Shown here: in pieces, positions 18,112 to 25,055 of the stretch | How positions within the stretch are numbered: the first letter of the stretch is position 1 | Layout: each line of letters begins with the position of its first letter | IMG/VR virus record: IMGVR_UViG_3300046163_000017 | Location: 1-38,684 of that record | DNA: 38,684 bases | Reading direction: 5' to 3' (one strand) | DNA from: a virus | Translations under genes and position numbers: made by a program | The notes under the pieces: model-generated | What the model was told of the DNA's origin: nothing | The model's database searches: none | What the model saw: only the letters and a program-made list of their open reading frames with translations

Positions 18112-18553
18112 CTACATCTAAATAGTCTTGCTCTTCTTCTGGAGCTGTTAAATCTATCGTAGCGGTAATATCAATCTTGGTCTGCTCCACCTTAGTTGGA
18201 GCCTTGTACCCTTGCATATCATTGATAATCTTTATAGCGTCCATAGCAGCCTTCATATCATCGTTTGCTATCGCCATATCCCTAATACGAATTAAGGCCG
18301 TTAGGTTCGTTCCCTTGGCCGCCTCAATGCTCTTAAGCTCTGAGTTAGCTATCTCCATTAACGCTTTGTGAAAAGCTGTACCCGTAGTTCTCCTATCACG
18401 ATAGTAGTTTGTGTAACCAAGCTCCTTAGCAATCTTACCCGAAGCATCCATACCGTTATCACGAATCCCCTCAAGGAACTTTGACTGAAGGTCTGTTAGT
18501 TCGCTACCGCGACCCGAGACTACTTTCCCGAAACTGTTTCTCTTACTTGGCAT
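18101..18553 (-). CDS. terS: Terminase small subunit
   Basis: 150 residues. The N-terminal part (SELTDLQSKFLEGIRDNGMDASGKIAKELGYTNYYRDRR, written as one helical DNA-binding region at about 17-57) has the helix-turn-helix layout of small terminases, in which a 'DLQxxFL...G' helix is followed by a recognition helix. A central oligomerisation helix (NSELKSIEAAKG...IRIRDMAIANDDMKAAMDAIK) and an acidic tail (APEEEQDYLDVDAD) follow. The gene order small-large subunit and an 11-nt overlap support the call. It recognises packaging sites on viral DNA. Confidence 0.85.
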   Translation of the reverse strand: MPSKRNSFGKVVSGRGSELTDLQSKFLEGIRDNGMDASGKIAKELGYTNYYRDRRTTGTAFHKALMEIANSELKSIEAAKGTNLTALIRIRDMAIANDDMKAAMDAIKIINDMQGYKAPTKVEQTKIDITATIDLTAPEEEQDYLDVDAD

Positions 18554-18830
18554 CTGTAATCTTGTATAGTGGAATGTTATGTGCGCCTAACCTACCCGTA
18601 AAGGTTAACTCACTAAAGCTTGGTGCTGTCTCATCACTATGATACCATTTCCAAATAGAAGTCTTCACCCTTTGAATACAACTGCCACAAGCAGTCTTAG
18701 GATTCTCTTGCTTTGGAAAGTATTTACTCTTGCCCACCATAGAGTTGTAAAACTTAAACATCTCTGACTTGGTATCACCTTTAGGCATTGTTCCGCTCAA
18801 TAAGGCTATTAGGAGTTCTTTAGCTGACAT
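18543..18830 (-). CDS. First gene of the late operon, unknown function
   Basis: 95 residues (MSAKELLIALLSGTMPKGDTK...). It has a TACGSCIQRVKTSIWKWY block at about 47-64, where CGSC may bind metal or form a disulfide. It overlaps the small terminase by 11 nt and is the first full gene transcribed leftward from the divergent hub. No family recognised with confidence; a terminase-associated or early-late regulatory role is possible. Confidence 0.65.
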   Translation of the reverse strand: MSAKELLIALLSGTMPKGDTKSEMFKFYNSMVGKSKYFPKQENPKTACGSCIQRVKTSIWKWYHSDETAPSFSELTFTGRLGAHNIPLYKITDAK

Positions 18831-18877
18831 ATCTTACTGTTTTGGTATGATTGTATAGAAGTGTTTAATTGAGGCTC

Positions 18878-18928
18878 TTAGAATGCCTCTAATGGAATAT
18901 ACAATATTGAATGTTCAGTGTCTTTCAT
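18878..18928 (-). CDS. Possible 16-codon leader peptide
   Basis: The minus strand reads AAAAGGAG, 4 nt, then ATG and 15 more codons (MKDTEHSILYIPLEAF) before TAA. The Shine-Dalgarno site is unusually clear for this phage. The stop codon lies inside a small hairpin, GAGGC...GCCTC (18871-18889). It is 47 nt upstream of the first late gene, so it may be an attenuator-type leader peptide, or a chance ORF. Expression is not demonstrated. Confidence 0.35.
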   Translation of the reverse strand: MKDTEHSILYIPLEAF

Positions 18929-18957
18929 TATTCTCCTTTTATTATAATAAACTAATT

Positions 18958-18992
18958 ATAATAAACTTTACTCCCATAGTAAAGTTTATTAT
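18958..18992. repeat. 15-bp AT-rich inverted repeat (hairpin)
   Basis: The left arm 18958-18972 and right arm 18978-18992 are perfect complements (ATAATAAACTTTACT against its reverse complement) with a 5-nt CCCAT loop. A second perfect 8-bp dyad, ACTATTAT-A-ATAATAGT, lies at 19018-19034. The cluster lies 128 nt and more upstream of the first late gene. It could be an operator, a cruciform or a DNA-unwinding element. Confidence 0.7.
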
Positions 18993-19085
18993 GATAATAG
19001 TATTAGAGTAAAGTAAGACTATTATAATAATAGTATTTATTATTATACAATATTCCCAAAGGTACTTTTCACATTCGTCAAATCA

Positions 19086-19134
19086 CCTTCCCCCCGCCCC
19101 CTTCCCCCCGCTCCGTGAGGCTAGCTTAACCCCC
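19086..19134 (-). other. G-run cluster (possible G-quadruplex on the minus strand)
   Basis: The plus strand has C-runs of 6, 5, 6 and 5 bases at 19090-19095, 19097-19101, 19104-19109 and 19130-19134. The minus strand therefore carries four G-runs of at least five in a surrounding AT-rich region. The first three are 1-2 nt apart; the last is 20 nt away. A quadruplex or a C-rich protein-binding site is possible. Confidence 0.55.
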
Positions 19135-19427
19135 TCTTTACACTTTTACGGTCACTTATCCAAATATTCCCCTACTTTTTTTCCTAATTTATAATGAGTC
19201 TAGATAGATGACGCGCTTAGTAATGCTAAAAATATTAGCAAGGCGTAACCCCTTACAAAATAATCCTAACATACACAACAAAATAAACCGACAATATGTC
19301 ACCTACTTTAGACGCATTTTAAGCCCTTCTAAGAGACTTTTACCCCTCTCTAGGGTACTCATATCACCTTACCCCATTGGTGAAATAGTAGTATTAAACA
19401 CCCTCTTATATGATACACATTTGGACC

Positions 19428-20095
19428 TAACTACTTGAATATCAATGCTTTACAATTTTAGTGTTGTTTAGCTTCTCCCTAGTACAATATACCTAGTGAC
19501 TAGGTATAAACACCTATGACAAAGTTAAGTACCTGTGTATCAATGACTTAGCTTTTTTAGTGTGTTTTAGTCTTGCCTAAACCTTTTCTTAGGTGGTCCT
19601 AATATCGTCAGATATGGACCTAGAAAATAAATATTGCAATTCGTTTGGTGGTTACAAATATTTATATTATACGCGGGTATCCATATATATTATAATAAAG
19701 CTAACTATCTGATAATCAATGAGTTAGGTGTAACTACTTGATACTCAATGAGTTAGGTCCACTTATATATGAAGGGAGCTATATGGGTATTTATACCTAG
19801 TCAAAAAAAAGTAAAATTGGTATTAAACACCTAAAAATAAGCGTAAGTATCTGGGTATCAATGAGTTAGATGATTTAGTGTATAATAGCTAACTACTTGA
19901 TTATCAATGAGTTAAGAGAAATACATATTTTGTAACTAATTGATTATCAGCTACTTAGGCTCTAGATTTGGTCAAGAACTCACTGTGTCGTTTCTTTGAC
20001 TTGTCAAACGGGGACAACGGGACCCGCCGCCAAGGAGACCTAACTTACTGAAAATCAGGCACTTAGCTTCTAAGTCACTGAAAATCAACGAGTTA
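19428..20095. repeat. Nine copies of a 25-bp dyad repeat (iteron/operator array)
   Basis: Copies start at 19428, 19526, 19702, 19731, 19844, 19890, 19933, 20041 and 20071; each is exactly 25 bp. The consensus has TAACT at positions 1-5, TGA at 9-11, TCA at 15-17 and AGTTA at 21-25, so the unit is itself an inverted repeat around position 13. TAA at the start, TG at 9-10, TCA at 15-17 and TTA at the end are unchanged in all nine. Start-to-start spacing is 98, 176, 29, 113, 46, 43, 108 and 30 bp. Such a unit suits a dimeric DNA-binding protein acting as replication initiator, partition factor or repressor. Confidence 0.85.
19488..19508. promoter_or_regulatory. 21-bp perfect palindrome (operator candidate)
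   Basis: TATACCTAGT-G-ACTAGGTATA is a 10-bp perfect dyad around one central G. A half-site-like copy, TATACCTAGTCA, is found at 19792-19803. It is distinct from the nine 25-bp dyads around it, so a second DNA-binding protein may act here. Confidence 0.6.
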
Positions 20096-20407
20096 CGATG
20101 AGGGTTAGCATCAAGCATAGCACTAACCAACTTGAAAAGCCCCCGAAAGGGTTGCGAGGCGATAACATCAATTCAAGGCAGTTGAGGATTAGCACCCAAC
20201 ACACTGCCCAAACAAGGAGAAAAGGCAAGGCCGCGAGGCGTCTAATGGGTACGGGTGAGAGAGAGACACCGCATAAACAGGCTACAGAGTATTAAACAGG
20301 ACGCACAATGATACCGCGATAACTAGCAACCTAAGACCTCAACGCTAAACCTTTTCAACCTGTTCAATATGAAAAGTCATCAAGTCAAGCACAACAGCGG
20401 CACCCAA

Positions 20408-20446
20408 TGAGGGCAAGCGGGGAGCAATACCCTAGGCCGCTACTAA
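20408..20446 (+). promoter_or_regulatory. Structured leader element A before the first early gene
   Basis: The stretch contains AAGCGGGGAGCAATACC then CTAG and GCTACTAAC; AGCGG pairs with CCGCT. It aligns with element B at 20846-20886 over AATGA, GAGC(A/G)ATACC, CTAG and CTACTAAC. Both sit shortly before small early genes, which points to a repeated 5' leader or binding site. Confidence 0.4.
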
Positions 20447-20478
20447 CTTAAAAAGTCCCTTAGAAGGGCATTAATACA

Positions 20479-20826
20479 ATGAATACTACCAACTTAAAAA
20501 CAGCCACTCAGTTTAAAGCCCTTGCAATGGTTATCGAGAAAATGGAGAAACAAGGCCACACAATCGATTCTAACTGCGAGGCAGGCTATAATGAGAATAG
20601 CGGCTATATTTACATTTGGTCGGAAGATATCCCCGTGAGCTACGGAATAGCAGACTACGCCTACCATAGAGGCGAGGAAGTAGAGTGCGTATTTTCGGAG
20701 TTCATTACAGGAGAGGAATTTTTTGGTACTAGCCTCGAAGATATCGAGAATAAATATAACGAGTGGTTTACCTGTAAGGTGGAAGACGGCGAGTTATTCG
20801 AGGAAGACCGCACACTATTTTCATAA
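20479..20826 (+). CDS. Small acidic early protein, unknown
   Basis: 115 residues, first gene of the rightward operon. It is strongly acidic (Glu/Asp-rich, ending VEDGELFEEDRTLFS) with many Tyr and Phe; SGYIYIWSEDIPVSYGIADYAYHRGEE is the central part. No family recognised. An acidic early phage protein may mimic DNA or bind a host enzyme, but this is conjecture. A hairpin TCCCTTAGAAGGG... lies 20 nt before the ATG. Confidence 0.7.
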   Translation: MNTTNLKTATQFKALAMVIEKMEKQGHTIDSNCEAGYNENSGYIYIWSEDIPVSYGIADYAYHRGEEVECVFSEFITGEEFFGTSLEDIENKYNEWFTCKVEDGELFEEDRTLFS

Positions 20827-20845
20827 GACCACCACAAGCTAGGAG

Positions 20846-20886
20846 GAATGACCGAAGGCGGAGCGATACCGCCCCTAGCTACTAAC
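20846..20886 (+). promoter_or_regulatory. Structured leader element B
   Basis: The gap between two small genes (20827-20900) folds with AGCTAGG (20838-20844) against CCTAGCT (20874-20880) and an inner GGCGG/CCGCC (20857-20861/20869-20873). It shares GAGC(A/G)ATACC, CTAG and CTACTAAC with element A at 20408-20446, in the same order and orientation. A cis-acting RNA element or protein site is likely; the ligand or partner is unknown. Confidence 0.45.
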
Positions 20887-20900
20887 CAACACGAAACGAA

Positions 20901-21044
20901 ATGCAAAACGAATTGTACCAACTTGAAAAAATCGCGGACGCAATGGTTGACCTTTGCCCCTACGATGACCACAACGAGCTAATCGCCCTTAACGCGACCC
21001 GCTTGAAATTACAGGAGAGAATTAACCGCGCATTTAGCGCATAA
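20901..21044 (+). CDS. Short helical protein (47 aa)
   Basis: ATG 20901 opens 47 codons (MQNELYQLEKIADAMVDLC ... LQERINRAFSA) ending 11 nt before the next ATG. The predicted helices carry heptad-like Leu spacing. The ATG follows ACGAAACGAA, an A-rich leader like those of the neighbours. No family recognised. Confidence 0.55.
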   Translation: MQNELYQLEKIADAMVDLCPYDDHNELIALNATRLKLQERINRAFSA

Positions 21045-21055
21045 CCTAGAAAATT

Positions 21056-21298
21056 ATGAAGACACGTAAAAACAATGACGGAACCGTAACTATTAGAATG
21101 GGATACAAAGAACTTTGTGCCTTAACGACAGGATTACGCGAGCAGATGCAAAACAATCAGAAAAGAGCCGAAGAGTCAACCAATGATTTTATAAAGGGCC
21201 TGTATTACGAATTTATGGACGAGGACATTGAGAAACTGAGAAAAGCGAGCGAGCTATTTGATTGGGCCATTGCTATACAAGAAGAAAAAAATAAATAA
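21056..21298 (+). CDS. Small helical early protein, unknown
   Basis: 80 residues. The opening (MKTRKNNDGTVTIRMGYKELC) looks like a short beta hairpin, followed by two amphipathic helices (LCALTTGLREQMQNNQKRAEE and EDIEKLRKASELFDWAIAIQ). The start is preceded by AAAATT, typical of this operon. No family recognised. Confidence 0.65.
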   Translation: MKTRKNNDGTVTIRMGYKELCALTTGLREQMQNNQKRAEESTNDFIKGLYYEFMDEDIEKLRKASELFDWAIAIQEEKNK

Positions 21299-21302
21299 CG
21301 AT

Positions 21303-21473
21303 ATGAAAAACTTGAAAGCAGCCGCATTACTCGCGGCACTATTTGGAACCCTGCTAATTGCCTACGGCGTTGGCGGGGCATTGCCCGAGAATAAAGAACT
21401 GTTCGGTGGAGCAGGTGCGGGGGTCCTATTGTGGACCGCCGTAATTTATGGAGAACTTAGAAAAGCAAAATAA
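21303..21473 (+). CDS. Small two-helix membrane protein
   Basis: 56 residues from ATG 21303; the frame extends upstream to 21258, but that part overlaps the previous gene and adds a Lys-run. Two hydrophobic segments are visible: AAALLAALFGTLLIAYGVGG (6-25) and GGAGAGVLLWTAVIYG (about 35-50), with a short charged loop PENKE between. It probably inserts in the inner membrane. The stop shares a base with the next ATG (TAATG). Confidence 0.65.
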   Translation: MKNLKAAALLAALFGTLLIAYGVGGALPENKELFGGAGAGVLLWTAVIYGELRKAK

Positions 21474-21748
21474 TGGAAAGCACAGCAGAATTTGAAATGA
21501 TGCACAACGGGAACCTTGAATTGTTTGAGGTGTCCTTTGTGTGGGAGGCTTGGAAGGACCGCTTTGATGCTGAGGACAGCAGCAGCGAATTCTGGGAATG
21601 GTCGCACGTTATGGTGAGACTGAGCTACTCCACAGAAGACAATGAGATTGTTAAGATAGCACCTGCGGAATATAACGCGATGCTACCCGAACTTAGGGAC
21701 TTTGTAGAATACAACATTAACGCACAAATTGAAAACGAACTTTACTAA
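21473..21748 (+). CDS. Small acidic early protein, unknown
   Basis: 91 residues, acidic and Trp-rich (VSFVWEAWKDRFDAEDSSSEFWEWSH at about 21-46). It is coupled to the membrane-protein gene by TAATG and ends 2 nt before the next ATG. No family recognised; the acidic aromatic composition is shared with several neighbours. Confidence 0.65.
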   Translation: MESTAEFEMMHNGNLELFEVSFVWEAWKDRFDAEDSSSEFWEWSHVMVRLSYSTEDNEIVKIAPAEYNAMLPELRDFVEYNINAQIENELY

Positions 21749-21750
21749 TT

Positions 21751-21924
21751 ATGAAACAGACATTTTACCCCACAGATGAAGAGCAGGACACGCTAATGTA
21801 TTTAGTGTGTAGAGAGAGCAACAGACGCGGATGGACCTACGATAATTACAACGTACAGGAGAACGCCTACCGCGCTGCTATAAGCGATGGCGCAATGAGA
21901 ACAGATTATTACTTTAACAACTAG
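21751..21924 (+). CDS. Short hypothetical protein (57 aa)
   Basis: ATG 21751 follows TTTACTAATT, with 2 nt after the previous stop. The protein has MKQTFYPTDEEQDTLMYLV and ends AISDGAMRTDYYFNN. It fits exactly between its neighbours (5 nt to the next ATG), which supports it being real. No family recognised. Confidence 0.6.
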   Translation: MKQTFYPTDEEQDTLMYLVCRESNRRGWTYDNYNVQENAYRAAISDGAMRTDYYFNN

Positions 21925-21929
21925 AAATT

Positions 21930-22364
21930 ATGAGCAACTACGGAATTACTATTAACCCAACGATTACGAGAGACGGAATGTTAAATTTATTTTGGGACGC
22001 ACTTTGTGGCGGGTCCATTGGATTTGGAAGCGTGAGCCTAGACTGCGACAAGAAGACATACGAGGACGCTAGAGAGCGCACAAAGATACTGAAGGCTGCG
22101 AACCCTAGCGATTACATTACAGGGTCCTCAGTGTGCTATGAGGACGTGATGACTGAGGTATTGAGAGCGGGAGGTGAGCTATACTATATGGAATACGGAT
22201 ACGATGACGAAAACAGTAGAGTAGCGTTTGACCTTGACCATTTGATGGACAACTTTGAGAACGTGGAACCATATATATTAGAGCAGATGCTGAATGATTA
22301 CGACTCAGTAACAACGGACTCACTGCTACAGTGTCTGTTGCTAGGGGAGATTGTATACGGATAA
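21930..22364 (+). CDS. Acidic early protein, unknown
   Basis: 144 residues. It starts MSNYGITINPTITRDGMLNLF and has a strongly acidic C-terminal half (EYGYDDENSRVAFDLDHLMDN, then NDYDSVTTD). The N-terminal half (FWDALCGGSIGFGSVSLDCD) is Gly/Ser-rich and holds a Cys pair. No family recognised. It is the largest of the small early unknown genes before 22670. Confidence 0.65.
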   Translation: MSNYGITINPTITRDGMLNLFWDALCGGSIGFGSVSLDCDKKTYEDARERTKILKAANPSDYITGSSVCYEDVMTEVLRAGGELYYMEYGYDDENSRVAFDLDHLMDNFENVEPYILEQMLNDYDSVTTDSLLQCLLLGEIVYG

Positions 22365-22377
22365 AACATATTGAATT

Positions 22378-22656
22378 ATGAAATGGGAAATTTATGATAA
22401 CCAAGACAAAGTAATTTACACAGCGTACGACCCGAGTGAGGCCCACATTATGTGGGACCACTACGGGGATGGCACATACTTGAGAGAGGTGGTGACCTGT
22501 AGTGGCTGTGATAACGAAGGACAGCTACAGCACGATGCTTACGGTATTTCAACGGGGCATTGGTGCTACTCCTGCTACGACAGTCCTAAGTACCCGTACC
22601 GCAAGGACAGGTACGATTACGAGGCATATGGTGAGAGGTTAGATGATAATTATTAA
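22378..22656 (+). CDS. Putative zinc-binding small protein
   Basis: 92 residues with two CxxC pairs, CSGC (41-44) and CYSC (63-66), spaced as in a four-Cys zinc ribbon. Flanks are acidic and aromatic (MKWEIYDNQDKVIYTAYDPSEAH; DYEAYGERLDDNY). It probably folds around one zinc and may contact nucleic acid or protein. No specific family recognised. Confidence 0.65.
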   Translation: MKWEIYDNQDKVIYTAYDPSEAHIMWDHYGDGTYLREVVTCSGCDNEGQLQHDAYGISTGHWCYSCYDSPKYPYRKDRYDYEAYGERLDDNY

Positions 22657-22669
22657 ATAAATAGAAACT

Positions 22670-23134
22670 ATGAAAAATGTATTAAGAGATTGGCTAGGAA
22701 TCAATGAGGAGAAGTTCGCCTTAGAGGTACAACTAAACAAGCTACAACAGAAGTTGGACCACTTAGATGCGTCATACGCAGATGTAGATGATAAATTGGA
22801 TAACCTTGACACTGAGGTGAGCAATATGAAGTACGAGCTAGAGGATAAGATATCAGAGTACGATATAGATGACAGAATCAGAGATGTAGCGTACTACGAC
22901 ATTGATGATATCAAGAATGACCTTGATAGCGACACGGATAACTCTGAGATTGTAGACACTGTATTTGACCTTGTGATGCAGGAGATTGAACACAGAGATA
23001 CAATACAGGAATTGGTTGAGCAGAAGCTAGAAGCAATCATCGCTGATGGCGAGAGCAGTGTAAGTACACCGATAGATGTTACTGAGATTGTAGAAGATGT
23101 AGTAGAGGAACTAATTAATAAACTTAGAGGATAA
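22670..23134 (+). CDS. Acidic coiled-coil protein
   Basis: 154 residues. A heptad coiled coil covers about 14-65 (EEKFALEVQLNKLQQKLDHL and DDKLDNLDTEVSNMKYELED), followed by Asp-rich segments (YDIDDRIRDV, YDIDDIKNDLDSDTD) and a helical end EIVEDVVEELINKLRG. The charge is strongly negative. No enzyme motif is seen. It is coupled to the next gene by TAATG. It could be a structural adaptor or host-protein inhibitor. Confidence 0.65.
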   Translation: MKNVLRDWLGINEEKFALEVQLNKLQQKLDHLDASYADVDDKLDNLDTEVSNMKYELEDKISEYDIDDRIRDVAYYDIDDIKNDLDSDTDNSEIVDTVFDLVMQEIEHRDTIQELVEQKLEAIIADGESSVSTPIDVTEIVEDVVEELINKLRG

Positions 23135-23355
23135 TGGACGGGATTGGATTACATATGACAACAGAAGATGCAAGAGAGAAATTGCAGCAGCAAATTGAAG
23201 AATATGCGGAACACGTATGCAGAAACTGTATAGTAGACAGCACGGTTAACGCACTGTTTAACGCTATCAATGTGGAGTTGGATTCCGTAGGTGTACCCGA
23301 TGATATTAGAGAAGAGGTGTTTGATTACTTGAACTCAACGTTCCACGTATCGTGA
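23134..23355 (+). CDS. Small acidic helical protein, unknown
   Basis: 73 residues. It has a helix EDAREKLQQQIEEYAEHVCRNC (about 11-32), then a second helical region VNALFNAINVELDSVGVPDDIREEVFDYLNS. A Cys pair, CRNC, lies near residue 30. The start shares a base with the previous stop. No family recognised. Confidence 0.6.
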   Translation: MDGIGLHMTTEDAREKLQQQIEEYAEHVCRNCIVDSTVNALFNAINVELDSVGVPDDIREEVFDYLNSTFHVS

Positions 23356-23420
23356 TTCGTAGATTGAGAAAGTACATAGACAAAAAGATTTCTATATACC
23401 TTTGGTGGTTTAGAAATTAA
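23352..23420 (+). CDS. Possible basic micropeptide (22 aa, GTG start)
   Basis: A GTG overlapping the previous TGA opens a 22-codon frame, MIRRLRKYIDKKISIYLWWFRN, ending at TAA. It is very basic then hydrophobic, like a short amphipathic peptide. Only the overlap and the composition support it; it may be chance. Confidence 0.25.
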   Translation: MIRRLRKYIDKKISIYLWWFRN

Positions 23421-23447
23421 GTATTAACTTGCAGAAAAATTAGAGCA

Positions 23448-24326: not shown

Positions 24327-25055
24327 ATGAAGATAACAGACAAAGATTTAAGAGCGTGGTTCCCTGCGGACCGAAGGTTCCTGCACTTCTGTGCAAAGTA
24401 TTACGGGTACTCCTTCCACAATGATGAGGTAGTAGAGAGAGCCAACCACTTAGCCGTGCTTAATGTGATGCGGTTAGTAAATAGAGATGAGGAGTTTGAG
24501 AACGAGGCGCATATGACAGGCATAGTTATGTCTTCATTCCGATACGCAATACTCAACTCCTATACCAATTCCCTTTCAGCTAACGAGAAGAACTTAGAGG
24601 TACGCAATGAGAGTGAGGTAACTTATGGTGATGGTGATGATGAGTACAGCAAGTACCAAGCCAATGCAATAGCAGATACCAAAGAGATAGATAACCTCAT
24701 TGATGTAGTAAGAGACTATGCAGAGACTAACCTACCATACCTACAACGCAGAGCTTTAATGGAGTGTGTGATTGGTGAGTCCTCTATGAAGGAGCTGGCT
24801 ACGGAAACAGATACAAGTGTACGCAAGGTCCACCTTGCAAAGCAGAAAGCAGTTAGAAGAATTAAGAAATTTATAGGAGTCCTAAATGAGAATGAAGAGA
24901 AGTATGGAAAGAAAGAGGCTGATGGAAAGTACATTAGCCCATCTCGTAGCAAGTTACAAATCGCAATACAACTTGAACCCATTAGAGAAGACGAGACGAG
25001 AGAGCGTGATTATAGCAAGGCAATGTCTTTTGTCAATACTCCACCAAAAGTATAA
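24327..25055 (+). CDS. Sigma-70-like RNA polymerase factor
   Basis: 242 residues. Residues 16-85 look like sigma region 2 (RFLHFCAKYYGYSFHNDEVVE then MTGIVMSSFRYAILNSYTNSLS). Residues 138-182 form a region-4 helix-turn-helix (LQRRALMECVIGESSMKELA, then ETDTSVRKVHLAKQKAVRRIKKF). Between them is an acidic linker. The layout is that of an ECF-type sigma factor with a longer linker and tail. It likely redirects host RNA polymerase to middle or late promoters. The 3' end overlaps the next gene in another frame by 134-170 nt. Confidence 0.75.
   Translation: MKITDKDLRAWFPADRRFLHFCAKYYGYSFHNDEVVERANHLAVLNVMRLVNRDEEFENEAHMTGIVMSSFRYAILNSYTNSLSANEKNLEVRNESEVTYGDGDDEYSKYQANAIADTKEIDNLIDVVRDYAETNLPYLQRRALMECVIGESSMKELATETDTSVRKVHLAKQKAVRRIKKFIGVLNENEEKYGKKEADGKYISPSRSKLQIAIQLEPIREDETRERDYSKAMSFVNTPPKV

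Follow-up and report, generated by a model that had tools for sequence, protein, structure and literature searches.

A 25-bp dyad repeated nine times in the divergent control region of a phage genome and found in unrelated mobile elements, a candidate site for a shared DNA-binding protein

What is the role of a symmetric 25-bp sequence that is repeated nine times between the divergent operons of a phage, and what kind of protein reads it? The stretch of DNA analyzed here (the window, 38.7 kb) comes from an IMG/VR virus record. Its left half is transcribed leftward and carries the terminase and structural genes, and its right half is transcribed rightward, with genes for an Erf-type annealing protein, an exonuclease, a DnaB-like helicase, RusA, an endolysin, and a holin. 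The divergent control region between them (18830-20479) is non-coding except for short unsupported ORFs, and the dyad array fills positions 19428-20095. It consists of nine copies of exactly 25 bp that match the consensus TAASTNNYTGANNNTCARNNASTTA with at most two mismatches, and at this threshold there are no matches elsewhere in the window. The features of the region are as follows.

18543-18830, minus strand: first gene of the leftward (terminase/structural) operon, the left border of the control region
19260-22364, plus strand: exchangeable control cassette with the array and the early genes at 20479, 21056, 21473, 21751, and 21930; borders approximate
19428-19452, unstranded: dyad 1, TAACTACTTGAATATCAATGCTTTA, two mismatches, by pattern and PWM
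19488-19508, unstranded: element E, TATACCTAGTGACTAGGTATA, an operator-like perfect palindrome of 21 bp in the gap from dyad 1 to dyad 2
19526-19550, unstranded: dyad 2, TAAGTACCTGTGTATCAATGACTTA, one mismatch, by pattern and PWM
19702-19726, unstranded: dyad 3, TAACTATCTGATAATCAATGAGTTA, by pattern and PWM
19731-19755, unstranded: dyad 4, TAACTACTTGATACTCAATGAGTTA, by pattern and PWM
19794-19802, plus strand: half-site of element E, TACCTAGTC, by sequence match
19844-19868, unstranded: dyad 5, TAAGTATCTGGGTATCAATGAGTTA, one mismatch, by pattern and PWM
19890-19914, unstranded: dyad 6, TAACTACTTGATTATCAATGAGTTA, the top score, by pattern and PWM
19933-19957, unstranded: dyad 7, TAACTAATTGATTATCAGCTACTTA, holding a TTG (19940-19942) that the candidate rightward promoter would use as its -33 element
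19963-19970, plus strand: candidate Bacteroidota-type -7 element, TAGATTTG, predicted by consensus
20041-20065, unstranded: dyad 8, TAACTTACTGAAAATCAGGCACTTA, by pattern and PWM
20071-20095, unstranded: dyad 9, TAAGTCACTGAAAATCAACGAGTTA, by pattern and PWM
20479-20826, plus strand: first well supported gene of the rightward early operon (115 aa), within the cassette

All nine dyads share TAA at positions 1-3, T at position 5, TG at 9-10, TCA at 15-17, and TTA at 23-25, with T or C at position 8 and A or G at position 18; sites from elsewhere refine this grammar to C or G at position 4 and a pyrimidine at position 8, mirrored at positions 22 and 18. The pattern TAASTNNNTGANNNTCANNNASTTA with up to three mismatches has 10 matches in the window against 1.27 expected, nine of which are the array, with one lying outside it. 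Sixty Markov shuffles gave a maximum of one dyad per 670-bp stretch, and the array averages one per 75 bp. The dyads score 22.7 to 34.3 by PWM, the next best place in the 38.7 kb scores 8.7, and the best scores in each of ten shuffles range from 1.2 to 10.4. Pattern search, shuffles, and PWM thus bear out the preliminary description of this locus, which reported nine exact 25-bp symmetric units with invariant positions in about 670 bp. That description also placed several spacings near whole helical turns, which does not hold up: the start-to-start distances are 98, 176, 29, 113, 46, 43, 108, and 30 bp, and at 10.5 bp per turn those of 29, 30, 43, and 46 bp correspond to 2.76, 2.86, 4.10, and 4.38 turns, so that only 43 bp is close.

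The two halves of the dyad vary independently at positions 4/22, 6/20, and 7/19, with no Watson-Crick covariation and pairing at chance in three independent collections. An RNA hairpin would show such pairing, and its absence argues for recognition of duplex DNA by a protein, half by half. Judged from its pattern of variation, the dyad is the target of a symmetric, probably dimeric DNA-binding protein. An RNA structure was considered and rejected, given the lack of covariation and the behavior of the leader between the array and the first well supported gene: it folds no better than shuffles (19977-20478, z = -0.18), has no Rfam matches, and yielded nothing in a tRNA search. No supported ORF is found in the leader (19975-20478), which is GC-richer and has long stretches that are near-identical to the corresponding DNA of L385, a contig described below.

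TAnnTTTG is the -7 element of Bacteroidota promoters, and TAGATTTG at 19963 is its sole occurrence on the plus strand of the control region. A consensus search of the control region gave just this one promoter candidate; in this consensus prediction, the -7 element is paired with a -33 TTG at 19940 that is overlapped by dyad 7. The candidate -7 element is also in L385, where the upstream TTG reads CTG. Element E is present in L294, L385, L401, and L423; this palindrome (TACCTAGTSACTAGGTA) and its half-site are specific to the cassette and absent from the rest of the window. On the other side of the region, short palindromes of the TTATAATAA type cluster at 18938-19066, upstream of the leftward operon, and are kept in all close relatives.

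The array lies in a segment with a history of its own. Close relatives, which are up to ~99% identical on both flanks, lose homology abruptly from ~19126-19139 to 22647-23447, whereas L385/L422 has a counterpart of both the control region and the early genes, at 80 to 93% protein identity, with its left neighbor gene being 63% identical and the genes to the right ~40% identical outside the cassette. Because there are relatives without the cassette, and because L385 shares it at an identity above that of its flanks, we conclude that the control region and the first early genes are exchanged as a block. The motif and its layout are conserved in related phages, a point on which the preliminary description had made its proposal depend. 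L385 also has nine dyads, at spacings of 98, 263, 29, 112, 46, 43, 108, and 30 bp, all but one of which are the same as or within 1 bp of those in the window; conservation is partial in L401, which retains the spacings 98, 175, and 29 until the contig end, and L423, which retains 98. Between the window and L385, the fixed dyad positions are identical at 139 of 144 (97%) compared with 431 of 522 elsewhere in the array (Fisher p = 3.5e-6), and the variable dyad positions and the inter-dyad DNA are each 83% identical. The higher identity at fixed positions points to selection on the dyads, to be read with the caution that the two arrays share one recent cassette ancestor and are identical in their 3' part.

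Other relatives (L160, L057, L063, L132, L133, L151, L154, and L124) have one to three dyads at the same place, some of them degenerate, and L123, L126, and L162 have no dyad in the control region. A dyad is detectable in 8 of 34 related control regions, which together with the dyad-free examples makes it dispensable for this phage type. In same-family phages, 20 sites in 57 kb lie upstream of the left operon compared with 5 in 130 kb downstream, as scored with a PWM built from unrelated phages. A nucleotide search with the whole region gave no match among named phages.

Among the matches listed in a scan and subsequent rescans, the dyad is found in many unrelated viral contigs. Contigs that are T4-like by gene content have at least 72 dyad pairs at exactly 50 bp, many of them directly downstream of TTGACA-N17-TATnnn boxes pointing into the pair, and these phages have up to 19 sites in 14 kb, at many separate promoters. 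In L062, L071, L091, L024, and other T4-like contigs, the 50-bp pairs surround a GC-rich 25-bp linker and repeat about every kilobase, with sigma70-like promoters pointing in from one or both sides. Another class of contigs has dyad clusters in one control region per genome. The 97-kb genome of Carjivirus communis (crAssphage) has just two sites at two mismatches or fewer, and these lie 156-157 bp upstream of the two repL genes of this phage; across crAss-like phages a dyad is located 90 to 190 bp upstream in 12 of 14 repL genes, with a few being weak (three mismatches, PWM 7-15). Allele-specific repeats lie between the dyad and the start codon at these loci (e.g., TATACCATACATGGAATAGATTTCG, twice in gp88), and where there is a -7 candidate, the dyad begins ~50 to 125 bp upstream of it. 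No strong dyad is seen in crAss001, whose annotation lists no RepL, and P12024S has no site at two mismatches or fewer. A literature search, in which few subscription papers were within reach, returned no description of the 25-bp dyad.

The association with repL extends to plasmids. A 2.7-kb Elizabethkingia plasmid has a left half-site plus TCA ~150 bp before repL, with the same arrangement in Empedobacter, and in pBI143-type plasmids (L428:1302-1386 and L429:1304-1388) repL is preceded by two perfect half-sites, 60 bp apart, and then by TTTTCCATATTGGAAA-like repeats. The profile built from crAss RepL recovers the RepL proteins of these plasmids (E = 5e-13 to 5e-15), that of pBI143 among them (E = 5e-14). 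A near-complete dyad borders the iterons of a Spirosoma plasmid whose initiator is of another kind. RepL was considered as a universal binder and rejected, as the profile finds nothing in the window or the other array phages and the Spirosoma plasmid uses another initiator.

Exact dyads are rare in chromosomes, with 4 genomes besides the centre having them in a random set of 394 from Bacteroidota. Several dyads of Bacteroidaceae genomes start right at the mnmE stop codon and are followed, where the contig continues, by an HTH_17 gene and a tyrosine integrase, as would be expected of an inserted element. In the Bacteroides integrative element at the mnmE 3' end (L349:7011, L350:2273, and neighbors), the dyad abuts the attachment core and precedes a conserved terminator, a triple HTH_17 protein, and the tyrosine integrase. 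Many single chromosomal matches have the form of terminators, being perfect hairpins bordered by runs of A and T, and one of them is directly behind a tRNA, a usual place of integration; terminators appear among the chromosomal matches because the search pattern is itself palindromic. The Microscillaceae MAG Prado074 (G021) is exceptional in having 908 exact dyads across 6.8 Mb, with 0 to 3 in other genomes of the family, and this abundance is a lineage-specific expansion; 102 of 108 examined dyads are intergenic, and the direction of flanking genes is neutral. A second exceptional genome (G434) has 29 dyads. We also note recurring two-dyad units and, at L205:581-838, seven near-identical tandem dyads at 46 to 47 bp. 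A REP-like element depending on a Y1 transposase (PF01797) was considered, but this gene is present both in the 908-copy genome and in relatives with zero copies and is thus uninformative.

Several proteins and functions have to be weighed for the array. The preliminary description favored the two DnaA-domain-IV-like proteins of the window as binders, and these are phage-encoded and helix-turn-helix-like, with Pfam Bac_DnaA_C matches (E = 8.7e-7 and 1.3e-4) that are both below the curated cut-off. We now regard this as highly improbable, because proteins 97 to 100% identical to both are present in L123 and L126, whose control regions are without a dyad. Of the 20 records examined, only six gave a PF08299 match, and dyad-cluster records such as G007, G009, G012, and G013 gave none, such that the dyad and these proteins do not co-occur, and DnaA boxes (TTATNCACA) are not enriched, the window having 43 matches at one mismatch where 51 would be expected, and none perfect. 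Directly upstream of the first DnaA-IV-like gene, and overlapping it, is a gene for a sigma-70 region 4-like protein (24327-25055; Pfam E = 3.9e-4, below the cut-off). A set of operators or stoperators for a repressor or activator encoded in the cassette, as in an immunity-like system, draws some strength from the joint movement of the array and early genes between phages, and from the specificity of the second palindrome, E, to this cassette type. We consider it rather improbable, however. The cassette proteins common to the window, L385, and L160 are unrelated to anything in other carriers, and those at 20479 and 21930 have no homologs in most of these. Pfam and PHROGs searches of the cassette proteins found no HTH or other DNA-binding family, although new families could escape them, and revealed no repressor gene in or beside the control region. 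Moreover, crAssphage, the plasmids, and the T4-like phages would need unrelated repressors of one specificity, and element E suits the role better than the dyad does. A binder encoded by all of the phages was also sought and rejected: ORF clustering (15 array phages plus T4-like loci) and profiles of window proteins gave only AAA ATPase, GIY-YIG, structural, or recombination proteins. No protein is common to all carriers at the sensitivity used, at which small, fast-evolving proteins could escape and with several of the contigs incomplete.

A replication origin, at which an initiator or helper binds the dyads and the AT-rich DNA between them opens, is consistent with the association of the dyad with repL genes and, in plasmids, with iterons, as well as with the DnaB-like helicase encoded by the phage. 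The array is in the most AT-rich kilobase of the window (33.7% GC), and the cumulative GC skew minimum falls in its divergent control region; the skew agrees with a replication start there but switches with gene direction, and so is neither independent nor decisive by itself. The origin is nonetheless an unlikely account of the array, as there is no RepL homolog or known initiator (by Pfam and PHROGs) adjoining it, its spacing is irregular rather than that of regularly spaced iteron-type repeats, and the T4-like pairs occur at many separate promoters, a number for which origins would have no use. Of the functions raised in the preliminary description, an operator or origin stands in outline, given the divergent control region, the layout kept in L385, and the link of the dyad to initiator genes elsewhere, whereas a partition site finds no counterpart in parA or parB in the PHROGs and Pfam scan of the early proteins. 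The same scan found no integrase, which bears on whether the dyads are att or crossover sites of a tyrosine recombinase. Some chromosomal dyads do sit against the 3' end of mnmE with an integrase gene as neighbor, six are upstream of integrase genes, and the two genomes with 908 and 29 dispersed copies bring to mind REP-like repeats without a phage function. Both are very unlikely for the array: the spacer letters differ among the nine dyads and would not allow free recombination between them, the conserved spacing and control-region position argue for function, and several of the chromosomal singletons are hairpins of the terminator kind described above.

The explanation we prefer, with roughly even confidence, is that the array comprises nine sites for one symmetric, sequence-specific DNA-binding protein governing the start of early transcription, and perhaps replication. 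At the sensitivity used, the dyad is common to unrelated mobile elements without a common protein, for which a host protein is the simplest explanation. From this distribution alone, with phage, plasmid, and integrative-element carriers sharing a site but no protein, we infer that the binder is host-encoded; with exact dyads being rare in chromosomes, such a protein would need looser sites or half-sites at home. A host dimer would bind the dyads, several at once in the window phage, and would gate early transcription by occupying the -33 element and the DNA to either side of the early promoter. The position of dyad 7 over the predicted -33 element of the rightward promoter, with other dyads upstream and downstream, would suit repression or conditional gating of the early operon, although binding may either activate or repress. 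In repL carriers, occupancy may set initiator expression and hence replication, and each carrier would add private repeats as its own switch, such as E here and the direct repeats before repL in crAssphage and plasmids. The array is one instance of a control site that recurs widely in mobile elements of Bacteroidota-type bacteria, with an origin function being possible. More tentatively, and at somewhat less than even confidence, we propose that Bacteroidota and related phyla have a conserved DNA-binding protein, so far undescribed, which recognizes the dyad and gives mobile elements a common point of entry; crAssphage, pBI143-type plasmids, marine phages, and integrative elements would all have taken up the dyad to couple their early expression or replication to host state.

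If this is correct, one host protein sits at a control point of very abundant mobile elements, including crAssphage and pBI143 of the human gut, and finding it would open up copy-number and lysis control in Bacteroidota, where few regulators are known. Even without a host protein, the conserved nine-site layout and the cassette exchange mark an early-control module of this phage group.

Host-factor sites for IHF, Fis, and DnaA are found in control regions and origins of lambda, Mu, and iteron plasmids, and the dyad resembles them as a short site reused by unrelated elements, placed next to the iterons or operators particular to each and close to initiator genes and early promoters. It differs in its strict symmetry and multi-copy arrays, and to our knowledge the 25-bp dyad with its 11-bp half-sites (TAASTNNYTGA) matches no IHF, Fis, or DnaA motif. 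The operator arrays of temperate phages, such as OL/OR of lambda and the stoperators of mycobacteriophage L5, are similar in having many like dyads over a divergent control region in an exchangeable module, but the dyad of the window recurs in unrelated phages and plasmids, and its cassette has no recognizable repressor gene. The pBI143 and crAssphage repL loci share an order of elements, with a dyad or half-site ~90 to 190 bp upstream, then allele-specific direct repeats, and then repL; they have one site or two half-sites, in contrast to the nine full sites of the window phage, in which no RepL homolog was detected. The paired dyads of the T4-like phages (L062, L071, L091, and others) follow the same grammar as the array, including Y at position 8 and R at position 18, and differ in coming as two copies spaced by exactly 50 bp, next to TTGACA/TATnnn boxes, an arrangement that recurs along the genome.
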